In this document: piece after piece, positions 942-13,389 of the stretch
Layout of the letters: every line of letters begins with the position of its first letter
Position numbering within the stretch: position 1 is the stretch's first letter
IMG/VR virus record: IMGVR_UViG_3300048837_000395
Coordinates: 1-21,706 of that record
From: a virus
Reading direction: 5' to 3' (one strand)
DNA length: 21,706 nucleotides
The notes under the pieces: generated by a model
Told to the model about the DNA's origin: nothing
Database searches by the model: none
The model's input: the letters and a program-made list of their open reading frames with translations, nothing else
Position numbers and translations under genes: made by a program

Positions 942-3941
942 TTAGCCTCCGCACAGTCCGACGAAATAAATCGCCGCTGCAATGTTGCCGATCCGGTTAT
1001 CCCATGTGCCGCCGAAATCGCCCGAATACAGCATTTTACTCGTATTGGTGACATACATGGCGCTGGCGTTAATGGCTAACGGCGCGCCCGCTGCATCAGC
1101 GGTTACGTCGCTGTACGTGGGCGTCGGATAACCCAGTTCTGCCGTCGTGAACATATTGCTTGCGCCGCCGTATGAACTAAACAGCGCGTTGTTGGCGTTG
1201 GCGTCGTCAATCACCATCTCAACGATATTGCCGCCGGTTGCCGGGGTTATGGCCGTGTTCGTGCTGCCTGATACCCGATACATGCTGTACACGTCATTAA
1301 TGCCGCTGCGCAACACGTCACCCCGATACATGATATTGGCCGTGCCGATGCTGTACGGCATGAAAATGCGCGGCAGCACATACTGTGACGTGAAGGCCAG
1401 ATTGCCCGACGATACCGCCCACGTTGCGCCGTAGTCGGCGCTCTTGTGCAGTTCCACGACAGACGAATTAAACGAACTGGTGTTCGTGTAGGCGGGCACA
1501 TAGACAACGCCCGTTTCCCGTTCGCTGATGTGCACCCAGGGCACGTCACTGCGCGGCTGCGTGTTGTAGTGTGCCGTGACTTCCACCTCGGTATAGGTGC
1601 TGTCGTCTGTCGTGTACGTGACATACACGCCGGGATATGTGCCGTCGTTGACATAGTTCCCGCTGGCGACAACGTGGTTCTGCATGCCGCGCGTGGCGCT
1701 GATATGCCGCGCGCTGCTGACAACGGCAAACGTGTGGCGCAAGGCCAGCGCGGGCGTGCCGAAAATGTCCGTTATCCTCAGAATGCTCGTGGTCGTCAGT
1801 ATCCAGCCGTTTACGGCGGTTCCGCCGCCCACATAGCCGGGGCTGTAGGCGTCCACCACAAACCGAATTATCGTGCCGTCCCAATTGGCAAGCCCGGTCA
1901 GGTCTGTGCCCGTCCAGGTGGGGCCGCCGGAACCGGACGGCGTGCCGAAATCGCCCGTTGTGTACAGGTAGCCGTTTGTTCCGAAGATCGCCAGCGTGCC
2001 GCTAACGAATGTCCCCCGGCTCGTGTCGTAGTCAATCGCAAAGCCGGGAAGCTCATAACTGAAGTCAAACGACGGAATGCTCAGCCCAATATCCGCCGCC
2101 ACCGGCGGTACGTACGTTACACCCACCGGCCCCGTCGTTTCGTGGTCAAGCGTTACCCTCACCGCCTTCGCGCCCCGGTCAGCGTCGTGGCTGATGCTCA
2201 CACGCGGGATTGTCCAGCGCGTGCCCGTGCCGAACGACACGCCGCGCTTGTTGGTAGCCGCCGCCAGCGTTAGCGTAACGGCCTCCCCGTAAGCCGGATC
2301 GAACACGTCATAGCCGTCAGGCAGGTTGATTTGCACACCACGCGGTACGAACTGGCCGTTATACAGGCTGTTGACGCGCGCGAAGTGCAGCCCGGCGCGT
2401 GTGTTCAAGTCAGCCTGCCCGCTAACGATCTGGCGGCTGAATGTCTCGGACGCTGTGCCCATCGGTGACGGCGCATTGCCCGGCGCATTGGAAAACACCG
2501 GCGCGCCCGCCGTCGTGATGCCCTCGCCGCGCACGAATTTCGTCGTGCCCCGGTGTTCGCGCGTCAGTTCCACGCTCAGCGCGTCCGCCGTCGTCAGGTC
2601 ATACGTTTTCGTGCGCGCCGTACGGTCGGTGCTGTCGAGGTAGTCGAACTCCCGTACGAACGTTAAGCGCCCTAACCTATCGGCGGATACCATGAGGTTC
2701 GTGGCGCTGGCAACATCGCGCAACTGCCCCGCCGCGCTGCTTACGTCAGTGACGGCAATACGCAGCAGGGACAAATTGCCCAGGCTGCCGCCGTTAATCG
2801 CCAGCGTATCAAATAGCGTCCCTACCGTCGCCTGCCAGTGCCACAGATACCACAGCGCGCGCTGTACCGTCAGCGTCTTGACTTCCTGCCAGTTGGCGGG
2901 CGTGGCATCGCTAATCATCAGCTGCGTCAGCGCGGGCGTGCGCTCCAGGATGCCCAGCGGCCCTTCCGCGTCAAAGCGCACGGTGTTGTTGTCCGGCTCA
3001 ATGCTGATCGTATCGCGCGTCAGGTAACCGATAAACTTAATGTTGCTACGCGCGGCGGCGTTGCTGCCGTAGGACGCCTCAGAACCGGCGTAGGTTTCGC
3101 GCTCCACATACACCACCAGCGCGCCGTCAGGCAGCGTGCTCACGGCGGCGTTTGTGTCCACCAGTTCGAAGGACGCGCGCCAGCCGGTGCGGACGTCACC
3201 TTCCAGTGAGGACATAATCACAGGCACGGGCGACAGCGTGCTGTTGTCGTATACCCACACGGGGACAAACTTTTCCGTTGTGGTACTGTTGTCGGCGTCC
3301 GTCACCGTCAGCTTAACCCAACGGAAGCCCGCCGGGAATGATACCGTCTCGGTCGCGGTGGCGCTGGTGGACGGCGTGCCGTCACCGAAGTCCCAGGCGT
3401 ATGTCAGGCCGCCGGTGTTGTCGGGGTCGACAGCGTAAGAGGTGGAGGCGTCAAACGCAATATTCGCCGTTGCGCCCCACCCTACCGCCGCGCCGCCCGC
3501 GTTGGCAACCGGCGGCGGGTCGGCAAGCTGGTCGGTGTAGGCGAGGCGACTGTCTTTGTTCAGCGCCGCCGTCGCGGATACGAGTTTATCCCAAATGCGC
3601 CACTCACTGACGATCTTCAGCACGTCCGTACCTGCGATATTGACGGTTCCCGCTGCCACCTCATTTATGGGCAGCGTGGTCGCGTTGAGCGTGCCGGTAG
3701 ACGCCACGCGCAGCAGGCCCTTGAACGCACCGGCGGCGCTTTCCACGCGCACGGTCATGCCGCGCTCCACGTCGGCAATATCGCCCGCCGTCACTGTGAT
3801 GGTGAGCGACATGGCCGGAAACGTCGGCGTGCTGTCTACGGTTGCCGCGCATACCACCGTCTGCGGAATGATCGCCAGATAGCCGGTGTAAGCGTATTTC
3901 CCGGCGCGGAAGGTTGCCGCTTGTCCGGTCAGGTCAGGCAT
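942..3941 (-). CDS. Large tail-tip/hub protein with PKD domain and Asp-box repeats (999 aa)
   Basis: This is the longest protein of the window. Residues about 143-235 form a PKD domain (YAWDFGDG core, then a KLTVTDAD strand), a fold usually found in secreted carbohydrate- or protein-binding proteins. Residues about 240-610 look like the beta-rich, hub-type part of a siphovirus tail-tip protein. From about 640 the sequence becomes propeller-like, with Asp-box motifs (S-x-D-x-G-x-x-W): SADYGATW near 832 and SGDFGGTW near 970, plus a weaker TTGDFG near 660. Asp boxes are typical of sialidase-like beta-propellers, but no catalytic set is recognisable. The gene follows the 225-aa tail protein by two bases. 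The likely role is a virion tip that binds host surface glycans; domain order is seen, function is inferred. Confidence 0.75.
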   Translation of the reverse strand: MPDLTGQAATFRAGKYAYTGYLAIIPQTVVCAATVDSTPTFPAMSLTITVTAGDIADVERGMTVRVESAAGAFKGLLRVASTGTLNATTLPINEVAAGTVNIAGTDVLKIVSEWRIWDKLVSATAALNKDSRLAYTDQLADPPPVANAGGAAVGWGATANIAFDASTSYAVDPDNTGGLTYAWDFGDGTPSTSATATETVSFPAGFRWVKLTVTDADNSTTTEKFVPVWVYDNSTLSPVPVIMSSLEGDVRTGWRASFELVDTNAAVSTLPDGALVVYVERETYAGSEASYGSNAAARSNIKFIGYLTRDTISIEPDNNTVRFDAEGPLGILERTPALTQLMISDATPANWQEVKTLTVQRALWYLWHWQATVGTLFDTLAINGGSLGNLSLLRIAVTDVSSAAGQLRDVASATNLMVSADRLGRLTFVREFDYLDSTDRTARTKTYDLTTADALSVELTREHRGTTKFVRGEGITTAGAPVFSNAPGNAPSPMGTASETFSRQIVSGQADLNTRAGLHFARVNSLYNGQFVPRGVQINLPDGYDVFDPAYGEAVTLTLAAATNKRGVSFGTGTRWTIPRVSISHDADRGAKAVRVTLDHETTGPVGVTYVPPVAADIGLSIPSFDFSYELPGFAIDYDTSRGTFVSGTLAIFGTNGYLYTTGDFGTPSGSGGPTWTGTDLTGLANWDGTIIRFVVDAYSPGYVGGGTAVNGWILTTTSILRITDIFGTPALALRHTFAVVSSARHISATRGMQNHVVASGNYVNDGTYPGVYVTYTTDDSTYTEVEVTAHYNTQPRSDVPWVHISERETGVVYVPAYTNTSSFNSSVVELHKSADYGATWAVSSGNLAFTSQYVLPRIFMPYSIGTANIMYRGDVLRSGINDVYSMYRVSGSTNTAITPATGGNIVEMVIDDANANNALFSSYGGASNMFTTAELGYPTPTYSDVTADAAGAPLAINASAMYVTNTSKMLYSGDFGGTWDNRIGNIAAAIYFVGLCGG

Positions 3942-4621: not shown

Positions 4622-6858
4622 TACATCATCCCCCGTTCAAGCTGGCCCACAAAACGATCCACTTCCTGCATTAGCACCGCGCGTATCTGTTCCGCCCCGC
4701 CCTGCCCCGACATGTTAACCGTCGGTGCGAAATTGACCGGATACTGGCCCCGGCGCGGGTTCATGATGTACTCGCCCTCGTGCACCATCGCCGCGCCCGT
4801 GCGCGTAATGTAGCCGCCGGTGTCGAAGGACACCATACCGCGCCCCGTGCCGCGTGCCAGCGCTTGCGTTGAGCGTGTCAGGATTTGCGTGTTACCCCGG
4901 AACTCTGTGCCCTGCGCTTGTGTGGCGCGAATGGTGCTGAGCGCATTGGACGCCAGTTGCAGCGCCGCGCTCCAATACTGCTGCTGCACACCTAACAGCG
5001 CCGCCGCGCCTTGGGCGCTGATCCCGACTTCCTGCTGCACAAACCGCGCCAGCGTTGCAAGGCGCTGCTGGTAGCTGGTAATCTCCGCTTGCCGGGCGGC
5101 GTTGGCGGCGGCATAGATGCTTTGCACCTGCTCCATATAGCGCGCGTTAACAGCCTGCGTCTGTTCGGCCAGACGCGCGTTGATGGTGGCCGTCTGTTCG
5201 GCGTAGCGCATACTGATGGTGCGCGTTTGTTCCTGGAGGTTGCGATCAACTTCGGCGCGCTGTTCGGCGTAGCTGTCGGTTTCCGACTGCACGGCCTCGT
5301 CACGGGTACGGCGCGCCGTGTCCAGCGCCACCGAATCCCTATCCTGAATGGCCGTCGCCTCGTCTAGCTGGAAACGGCGGTTGATTTCCGTCAGGCGCTT
5401 GAGGTGTTCACGCTCCTGCTTTTCGCGGTCAATCCCGGCCTTGCGCGCGACTTCTGCGATAGACGTTTCGCGGTCGCGGCTGGCTTCCGCGCGTGCCTTC
5501 TGCGCGTCAATTTCCGCATCCACCAGCGCCTTTTCGCGGTCGCGGGCGGCGTCGGCTAACTTGTTACGCGCGTCAGTGGCGATCTTTTCGAGGCTGGCAT
5601 TAAAGCTCTCGGTGGCTTTCGCCGCGTCGTCCTGAGCCTTCGCCAGCGCCTCCTGCTGCGCTACGTTCCGTTCGCGCGCTTTTGTGGCCGCTTCAATCGC
5701 GTGCCGTTCGCGCTCGCGTTGTTCGACTTCGTAGCGCGTAATGGTATTCAGCGCTTCAATCGCGCCGATAATCTGGTATATGCGCTGCTGATACTTTTCC
5801 GACTGTTCGTCGCTGACGGTGCCTAACTTAATCTGTGTTTCAAGGATGTCCTGTTCGTTCCGCAGCGCCTCAATACGTTCGTCAAGCGCTTTCGTGCTGT
5901 CTAGTGTAGACGCCGCCAGGCGCGCTTGCACACCCGCGTCTATCGTCAAGTCCATGATGGACTGTAGCTGTTTTGTCATTGCTTCTTGTGCGGCGGTTGC
6001 ATCACGAGTAGCAATTTCGGTATCGCCCAGCGCGTTATTCAGCCGTGATAATGCGAATTCCTCATCGCGCAGCTTGGCCTCTAAGCCTTCCAATTCCGTC
6101 CGCAGCGTTTGCACGTTGCCGATATTCAGCGCATCCGCAATGGCGCGCCCTACGCCGCCCGCCTCTGCCTCGAACTGCGAAAACAGGCGCTGGTACTCAT
6201 CCACGCGCGCACGCAGAATGTCCACTTCAATCCGTTTGGTGTCAATCGCTGCCTGAATGCTTTCAGACGTGCCAGTTTTCAGTGCGCGAAAGTATTCTTC
6301 CTGTGAATTGATAATGGACTGAATGGCCTTGCCACCCTCTGCCGCCAGACGGTTTAAACCGACAATCAGACCGCCCAGCGTCACAATGACACCCAGCACA
6401 ACCGGGTTTAAGCCGCCCATAATGGCAATCAGCTTACCGAACACGTCCGTTGACAGATTGCCACTAATGGGCACGGCGGGCAAGGCGCGGATTTCCCGGC
6501 CAATGGTGGTAATAGCGTTGCTCTTTTTGCCACCCCTACCTGTGTTGTTCGCCGCCGCTGCCGCTTTTTCTGCGCTGTCTCGCAGTCGGTCAAATTCCCG
6601 TGCCACCTGTCGCACCTCGGCGGCGTTGGCGTCCAGCTTGGTCATTTCGGCATTCAGGCGCGCAACCGCCACGCGCGCGTTGCCACCCTCTGCCGCAAAC
6701 TTAGCCGTGTCCGCTGCCACCTGCGACATTGCTCGCTGGCGGTCAAGCTTGGATAGTTCCTGTTGCAACGCTTGCGTATTCGCCCGAACATTGGCAAACG
6801 CGGCCTTATCGGTTTCGAAGCGCAGCTTGACGCTGGCTACCCGTTGTTCGTTTGCCAT
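4621..6858 (-). CDS. Tape measure protein (745 aa)
   Basis: The protein sets tail length and is threaded through the tail tube. Residues about 1-110 and 190-620 are long, charged coiled coils. A hydrophobic segment at about 139-172 (LIAIMGGLNPVVLGVIVTLG) is the membrane-active stretch usual for this family. At about 541-586 there are three consecutive 11-residue repeats (RYAEQTATINA, RLAEQTQAVNA, RYMEQVQSIYA). The C-terminus carries the family-typical pattern GGYITRTGAAMVHEGEYIMN. At 1.5 A per residue the length predicts a tail of about 110 nm. The start ATG overlaps the stop of the chaperone extension (TAATG) and the end overlaps the next gene the same way. No endopeptidase or lysozyme domain is seen. 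Confidence 0.93.
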   Translation of the reverse strand: MANEQRVASVKLRFETDKAAFANVRANTQALQQELSKLDRQRAMSQVAADTAKFAAEGGNARVAVARLNAEMTKLDANAAEVRQVAREFDRLRDSAEKAAAAANNTGRGGKKSNAITTIGREIRALPAVPISGNLSTDVFGKLIAIMGGLNPVVLGVIVTLGGLIVGLNRLAAEGGKAIQSIINSQEEYFRALKTGTSESIQAAIDTKRIEVDILRARVDEYQRLFSQFEAEAGGVGRAIADALNIGNVQTLRTELEGLEAKLRDEEFALSRLNNALGDTEIATRDATAAQEAMTKQLQSIMDLTIDAGVQARLAASTLDSTKALDERIEALRNEQDILETQIKLGTVSDEQSEKYQQRIYQIIGAIEALNTITRYEVEQRERERHAIEAATKARERNVAQQEALAKAQDDAAKATESFNASLEKIATDARNKLADAARDREKALVDAEIDAQKARAEASRDRETSIAEVARKAGIDREKQEREHLKRLTEINRRFQLDEATAIQDRDSVALDTARRTRDEAVQSETDSYAEQRAEVDRNLQEQTRTISMRYAEQTATINARLAEQTQAVNARYMEQVQSIYAAANAARQAEITSYQQRLATLARFVQQEVGISAQGAAALLGVQQQYWSAALQLASNALSTIRATQAQGTEFRGNTQILTRSTQALARGTGRGMVSFDTGGYITRTGAAMVHEGEYIMNPRRGQYPVNFAPTVNMSGQGGAEQIRAVLMQEVDRFVGQLERGMM

Positions 6859-7181
6859 TATCGAAGCTCCGCCGGTCGCCGGTCTTTATCGCGCTCATAC
6901 TGCAACATCTGCCGGTAGCGGTGGAAATCCTCAATCCATTCGCTATCGGCGTCCATCAGGGACGTGTTGTAAATGTCACGCGGATTGATAACGTAAATCT
7001 GCGCTGCCTCGAACAGTCGGTTAGCCAGGTTCAATAGCTGCCAGTGATAGGCCCCCGGCGGCGGCGGCGCTTCCAGCACAAGGCGGTCAGGGTTGTTCGT
7101 GCGCTCTGCCCGTACCAGCCGTTTGACGTGATCGTAATACCCGGCAAGGTAAGCGCCGCCTTGCCGGGTTACACTTCCGGG
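6858..7181 (-). CDS. Tail assembly chaperone C-terminal extension, reached by predicted -1 frameshift (GT-like)
   Basis: This frame is open from just after a TGA at 7182-7184 down to the TAA at 6858-6860. It has no convincing start of its own: there is no ATG, and the GTG at 7079 lacks a ribosome binding site. Translation gives about 107 residues with good protein character (QGGAYLAGYYDHVKRLVRAE near its beginning, then LLNLANRLFEAAQIYVINP). It sits between the chaperone and the tape measure, where lambda and many other siphophages place the GT extension. A fusion at CCG (7180-7178) would give about 228 residues. Such proteins bind the tape measure and recruit tail-tube subunits and are absent from the virion. 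The reading frame is seen; the frameshift is inferred. Confidence 0.7.
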   Translation of the reverse strand, partial: PGSVTRQGGAYLAGYYDHVKRLVRAERTNNPDRLVLEAPPPPGAYHWQLLNLANRLFEAAQIYVINPRDIYNTSLMDADSEWIEDFHRYRQMLQYERDKDRRPAELR

Positions 7182-7183
7182 TC
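7139..7183 (-). promoter_or_regulatory. Predicted -1 programmed ribosomal frameshift signal with 11-bp stem-loop
   Basis: On the mRNA (minus strand) the sequence C CCG GAA (7181-7175) is followed by a five-base spacer. A perfect 11-bp stem comes next: ACCCGGCAAGG (7169-7159), a nine-base loop (7158-7150) and CCTTGCCGGGT (7149-7139). The stem begins in the stop codon of the upstream frame. The slip must occur between the TGA of the -1 frame at 7182-7184 and the zero-frame TAA at 7169-7171, which leaves only these codons. The heptamer is not a classic X XXY YYZ site, so the exact slip codon is uncertain. Confidence 0.6.
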
Positions 7184-7543
7184 AACGCGCCCTGCCCCGT
7201 CGCGAGTGGCTTCATAAGCCGCCCACCATTCGTTGACAATATCCGAATCCAACATCTGCACGAACAGTTGCCAACGATCCAGCACGGCTGCGGGCCGTTC
7301 CTGCCAGTACATCTCGAACGCCCGCAAGCCCGCCGGGGCATCCTCCGCCAGCGCGAAGTCAACCGCCACCGTCAGCGCATCACACAGCGCGAATGACGCC
7401 TGAATGCCGGTCACTTCCCGCCCCGGCGCAAGCGTATCAAGGGTCACGTCAACCGCCAGCGTGCGATAGGGCATCATGTGAAAGGTGATCTGGCCGTCAA
7501 AGGCCGGGTGCGCTTTCGTCAGCGCCTTCAGATTCATGTTCAT
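7169..7543 (-). CDS. Tail assembly chaperone, unshifted product (G-like, 124 aa)
   Basis: The gene lies between the major tail protein region and the tape measure, where the lambda G-type chaperone is always found. It is a mixed alpha/beta protein with an N-terminal strand-rich half (FDGQITFHMMPYRTLAVDV) and a C-terminal helical half (RWQLFVQMLDSDIVNEWWAA), in line with the family's size. It ends at TAA (7169-7171) and is followed at once by a strong hairpin and a -1 frame that continues without its own start. The ATG at 7543 overlaps the end of the preceding small gene by 47 bases; an ATG two codons later (7537) is an alternative. Neither has a strong ribosome binding site. The family call rests on position and the two-frame layout. 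Confidence 0.72.
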   Translation of the reverse strand: MNMNLKALTKAHPAFDGQITFHMMPYRTLAVDVTLDTLAPGREVTGIQASFALCDALTVAVDFALAEDAPAGLRAFEMYWQERPAAVLDRWQLFVQMLDSDIVNEWWAAYEATRDGAGRVDPEV

Positions 7544-12780: not shown

Positions 12781-13389
12781 CTAGAGCTTAGGGCGGAATG
12801 TGATTTGCTTGCGGATAGTTTCCACGTCCGGTTTCGGTGGCTTACCGCCCGCAAGTGACGGGCTGCCCATACCCGCCGATTTGAAAAACCCAGGGCGCTC
12901 CTGCTTCACTTTCGCAATCAGCTTTGCAACGGCTTTATCATCAACTGTACCGTCGTCACTCATCACCGCCTGGAGATCATCCGGGTAATTAGCGTCAAGC
13001 CACACCAGAACATCTTTCGGGTGTTCTGCGTCTTTTAACGCGGTCATGATTTCGCCGTTGCGCTTATCAAGCAAGCGCGCCCGTTCCGACACGCTGGCGC
13101 GTTCGGCAGCAGCCTGCGCCGCCTTTTCCGTCTCCGCCAGTTTTGCTTGCAGCTTTTCCAATTCGGACATTTCCGCATCGGCGCGTTTCTTCGCTTCTGT
13201 CACCGCCGCTTTTGCCGCATCGGGCGTGTCAAAGCCAAGCTGCTCGAGCAAACGTTTCACCGCTGCTTCCTCAGCCCGTTTCGCGCGCTCCCCGACAATG
13301 CGATCAATATCGGCCTGCGTGAATGTCCGCTCCCCCTCCGTTACCGCCGGGGTCTGCGTGACTTCCTGCTGCTGTTCGTTGTCATTCAC
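12781..13389 (-). CDS. Capsid scaffolding protein (202 aa)
   Basis: I chose the GTG at 13389 because GGGGAG lies eight bases upstream and the longer in-frame start would overlap the minor head gene. The N-terminus is polar and Gln-rich. Residues about 22-115 form a long charged coiled coil (QADIDRIVGERAKRAEEAAV, then AEMSELEKLQAKLAETEKAA). The end carries a flexible SPSLAGGKPPKP linker and a basic tail (RKQITFRPKL), the layout of scaffold proteins whose C-terminus docks onto the capsid shell. It would shape procapsid assembly and leave before or during packaging. No protease domain is present. Confidence 0.8.
   Translation of the reverse strand: MNDNEQQQEVTQTPAVTEGERTFTQADIDRIVGERAKRAEEAAVKRLLEQLGFDTPDAAKAAVTEAKKRADAEMSELEKLQAKLAETEKAAQAAAERASVSERARLLDKRNGEIMTALKDAEHPKDVLVWLDANYPDDLQAVMSDDGTVDDKAVAKLIAKVKQERPGFFKSAGMGSPSLAGGKPPKPDVETIRKQITFRPKL

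Follow-up and report, generated by a model that had tools for sequence, protein, structure and literature searches.

Production of G/GT chaperones by frameshifting is common across long-tailed phages, although the proteins themselves show low sequence similarity (PMC5009743). In the lambda gpG/gpGT system, G lies between the genes for the major tail and tape measure proteins, and a shift into the -1 frame close to its end fuses T to it (PMC5009743); the locus described here appears to share this organization. It differs from lambda in that G and T are unlike known families, the candidate slip heptamer, CCCGGAA, is noncanonical, and a strong, simple hairpin follows directly. The heptamer itself has been described with PRFect: among annotated chaperone frameshifts of actinophages it is the form most often taken by a hypothetical "threetwotwo" motif, for which re-pairing of tRNA-Glu on GGA through a G:U pair was given as the explanation. 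The companion "fivetwo" motif is GGGGGAA, also from annotated actinophage chaperones (PMC10885494). CCCGGAA as a chaperone slip heptamer is, in other words, already known and not new; no experimental test of it was found in the literature searched, where the proposals derive from annotations only.

With the "threetwotwo" cases the present locus has in common the heptamer, the kind of gene, the -1 direction, and the predicted change from GAA to GGA through a G:U pair, but those cases come from high-GC SEA-PHAGES actinophages, whereas this phage belongs to an uncultivated group without a close match in the phage collection (PMC10885494). A further difference is the hairpin found in all three CCCGGAA members here. 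The "fivetwo" heptamer GGGGGAA, present in the relative L005, would involve the same A-site change from GAA to GGA and differs in its P-site codon, GGG instead of CCG (PMC10885494).

Gene organization of the tail module

The window, which is the whole 21.7-kb stretch analyzed, is an IMG/VR virus record with matches to terminase, portal, major head protein (PHROG 3990), and tape measure, and the order of its head and tail modules is of the long-tailed phage type. Two overlapping frames, G and T, are located between the tape measure gene and a gene whose product had no match among the families searched and is labeled major tail protein solely by its position (Table 1). As in lambda-type G/GT pairs, the downstream frame is at -1 and has no good start of its own; it ends at 6858, exactly where the tape measure gene begins. 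Downstream of the tape measure module, positions 942-3941 of the minus strand encode a 999-aa protein with a PKD domain, which is 91% identical in the relative L008.

Table 1. Coordinates of features in and around the candidate G/GT locus
Feature	Positions	Strand	Basis or remarks
Tape measure protein, 745 aa	4621..6858	minus	PHROG 339 tape measure, E 6.4e-5; directly after T
T, -1 frame, 107 codons plus stop, C-terminal part of the predicted GT	6858..7181	minus	Open frame; resembles T in L003 and L008
Putative stimulatory hairpin, perfect 11-bp stem ACCCGGCAAGG/CCTTGCCGGGT, 9-nt loop	7139..7169	minus	
G, 124 aa, zero frame, ATG 7543 to TAA 7171-7169	7169..7543	minus	Open reading frame; position between major tail protein and tape measure protein
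Candidate slip heptamer C_CCG_GAA	7175..7181	minus	Only workable heptamer between the two stops; also in L008 and L004
TGA immediately 5' of the slip site, closing the -1 frame	7182..7184	minus	
Small protein between major tail protein and G, 101 aa	7497..7802	minus	61% identity in L008
Probable major tail protein, 290 aa	7763..8635	minus	Gene order; 84% identity to L008, 28% to L003

Neither G nor T matched a family in Pfam or PHROG, known chaperone families included. G and T gave no match in the phage collection, nor did G in a scan of viral contigs or the tape measure protein in a scan of genomes, and comparing the two G groups by their profiles gave no significant result; the sole T match in the viral-contig scan, L002, was rejected as a 21-residue chance match. 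AlphaFold models were poor (pLDDT of 45 for G and 53 for T, too low for structure searching) because there are few relatives. The chaperone identity of G and T therefore rests on position and architecture; since known tail chaperones show low sequence similarity to one another, a family match is not strictly defining for a G/GT pair (PMC5009743).

Codon preference in the first 34 codons of T, ahead of its earliest possible start, is weak (0.05 per codon, at the low end of true genes). Past the TAA of G, the zero frame is coding-like in its codon usage down to about 7080 (positions 7080-7168, minus strand; 0.23 per codon, above the value for T), which puts it in the top 0.5% of wrong-frame segments (16 of 3194 score as high). 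This may be due to chance, and no homology supporting this extension was found. Readthrough of the G stop was rejected, as a zero-frame TGA at 7033-7031 is met before the tape measure gene and homology is lacking; a +1 shift was likewise rejected, the +1 frame ending at 7087 and having poor codon usage.

Candidate slip site and hairpin

A -1 slip is possible only between the TGA closing the -1 frame and the zero-frame TAA, an interval of 13 nt, and C_CCG_GAA is therefore the only site where re-pairing is available. Of the 6774 in-phase heptamers in called genes, a single one is CCCGGAA; it stands at the end of G, and its location ahead of the zero-frame stop agrees with the PRFect definition of "threetwotwo". 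Compared with the canonical X_XXY_YYZ pattern, the heptamer has the XXX run and lacks the YYY run.

The spacer between heptamer and stem, GTGTA (7174-7170), is 5 nt long, which is the usual distance from a heptamer to its stimulator. The hairpin is the longest perfect stem with a 3- to 12-nt loop in the 21.7 kb and the only one of at least 11 bp, whereas 0.15 such stems of at least 11 bp are expected per shuffled window. Its folding z score is -2.9, with 1 of 200 shuffles folding equally well, and the energy of the segment is in the best 1.3% among all 45-nt minus-strand stretches.

Most of this was anticipated by a sequence-only reading of the locus. Its 124-aa frame ending at 7169, its -1 frame running from 7181 to 6858 without a good start, and its perfect 11-bp stem five bases past C CCG GAA were all recovered at the same positions on the minus strand; the slip was rightly placed between the two stops, and its fusion of about 228 residues agrees with the 123 + 105 = 228 residues calculated for a tandem slip. 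The description of the slip site as unusual stands insofar as the heptamer is not X_XXY_YYZ, but does not hold for its occurrence, since CCCGGAA has been reported as recurrent in phage tail chaperones (PMC10885494).

Conservation of the frame relation among relatives

Relatives were compared by taking the two frames immediately upstream of the tape measure gene, leaving out the near-duplicate L006 and L023, in which the relation is +1. T is at -1 in 13 of 13 pairs, this phage included, so the G/GT arrangement is kept. ATGA-type overlaps, as in L005 and L007, also give -1, and part of the pattern could therefore stem from them. Nine pairs have canonical heptamers, namely A_AAA_AAA (L003, L013, L028, and L027), A_AAA_AAC (L029 and L007), G_GGA_AAA (L031), and C_CCC_CCG (L021 and L022); one has G_GGG_GAA (L005), and three have CCCGGAA (L008, L004, and the window). 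The comparison of frames and hairpins across related phages that the sequence-only reading had proposed thus favors its lambda-type slippage, as relatives share the frame relation and most of them carry classic slip sites.

The relative L008 is 96% identical to the window in the tape measure protein, 43% in G, and about 23% in T. The decamer GACCCGGAAG is nevertheless identical despite the diverged G and the differing 3' sequence, and the heptamer is followed after 7 nt by a hairpin of different sequence (z = -3.6). Conservation of CCCGGAA in L008 may in part reflect a conserved DPE peptide and codon preference: GAC, CCG, and GAA are the favored codons for D, P, and E, and the codon fractions predict identical DNA in about 21% of cases if the peptide is conserved. 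In L004, whose capsid is 46% identical and whose G has no detectable similarity, the sequence is GAC CCG GAA TAA, and the heptamer is followed after 6 nt by a strong hairpin (z = -1.8). The -1 peptides directly past the slip site are also alike between L003 (KKKRRQSLLND) and L008 (SRKRRADRLND).

The G/T cassette as a whole (6858-7543 in the window, 6310-6998 in L008) is far more diverged than its neighbors (84% and 96% identity), which suggests cassette exchange or fast evolution.

Alternative explanations

A lambda-type G/GT -1 programmed frameshift at C_CCG_GAA with a 3' hairpin, predicted to yield a 228-aa fusion, is the best explanation of the locus and very probably correct. The chief competitor is a separate T gene, translated by coupled re-initiation after the G stop from the GTG at 7079 or from a nonstandard start. 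Some relatives offer such starts: in L004 an ATG follows the G stop by two bases, ATGA overlaps occur in L005 and L007, and in L008 the T frame contains an ATG at 6735 with a Shine-Dalgarno energy of -4.2 kcal/mol. In the window, however, the GTG is the earliest ATG, GTG, or TTG of T, lies 34 codons in, and lacks a Shine-Dalgarno sequence (-0.6 kcal/mol); the earliest start in L003 is 36 codons in and not usable, and the first possible start is also well inside the frame in L021 and L022. T-like sequence, moreover, precedes both the window GTG (RTNNPDRL) and the L008 ATG, and we consider independent initiation improbable. Less probable still is a bypass as in T4 gene 60, in which ribosomes would hop over the TAA and the hairpin and land 3' in the T frame, so that the GT peptide would not span DPESVTRQGGAYL. 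The stop does adjoin the hairpin, and -1 codon preference across the hairpin is weak, but no clear matched pair was found by eye, and with the hairpin read at -1 the slip site lies at a similar distance from the NN..L segment in the window (28 codons), L008 (30), and L003 (23), which makes a hop unneeded; the colinearity of T from the slip site on is therefore evidence against it.

An assembly indel or gene decay, by which G and T would truly be one frame or a pseudogene, has a very slight chance of being correct; the window is a single metagenomic contig, yet the -1 relation is repeated in 12 other pairs on other contigs with differing hairpin sequences, and a sequencing error, which the earlier reading had listed as refuting the predicted frameshift, is thereby excluded. 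Equally slight is the chance that the hairpin has no part in decoding and serves instead to terminate transcription or as a processing site, as its strong G+C-rich stem at a gene end might suggest: no T run follows the stem, no terminator-like site was found, the hairpin is inside the T frame, and relatives have unrelated stems at a similar distance from the heptamer.

Proposed mechanism and slip class

From the frames, the slip interval, the hairpin, and the conserved arrangement, we infer the slippage, its efficiency, and the protein roles as follows. Most ribosomes would stop at the TAA and release the 124-aa G, whereas a minority would be paused by the 11-bp hairpin while tRNA-Pro occupies CCG in the P site and tRNA-Glu occupies GAA in the A site. 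A tandem slip back by one base would move tRNA-Pro from CCG to CCC and tRNA-Glu from GAA to GGA, with a G:U pair at the middle base, and translation would continue in the T frame to give the GT fusion. By analogy with lambda, G may bind the tape measure protein, and the T part may recruit the major tail protein.

Whether X_XXG_GAA (CCCGGAA and GGGGGAA) is a genuine second -1 slip class, with tRNA-Glu on GGA through a middle G:U pair and interchangeable with classic heptamers within one phage group given a strong hairpin 5 to 7 nt downstream, is in our judgment evenly balanced. The locus adds an uncultivated phage group to the predicted users of G/GT frameshifting, and the relatives form a natural set in which one gene carries a classic heptamer, CCCGGAA, or GGGGGAA, depending on the member. 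Such a set is suited to testing whether -1 slippage can be efficient when it relies on G:U re-pairing at the middle base.

Three relatives merit separate mention. In L005, GGGGGAA (13089-13095) is at the same gene position and overlaps a possible ATGA start of T, so that both a fusion and a separate T may be made. The frame pair preceding the tape measure gene in L023 (14608-15334) may represent either two separate genes or a +1 frameshift. L031, a contig filed under a Thorarchaeota metagenome-assembled genome, combines a capsid gene related at 44% with a G/T pair in which G_GGA_AAA is accompanied by a strong hairpin; it is either misbinned or an archaeal virus.
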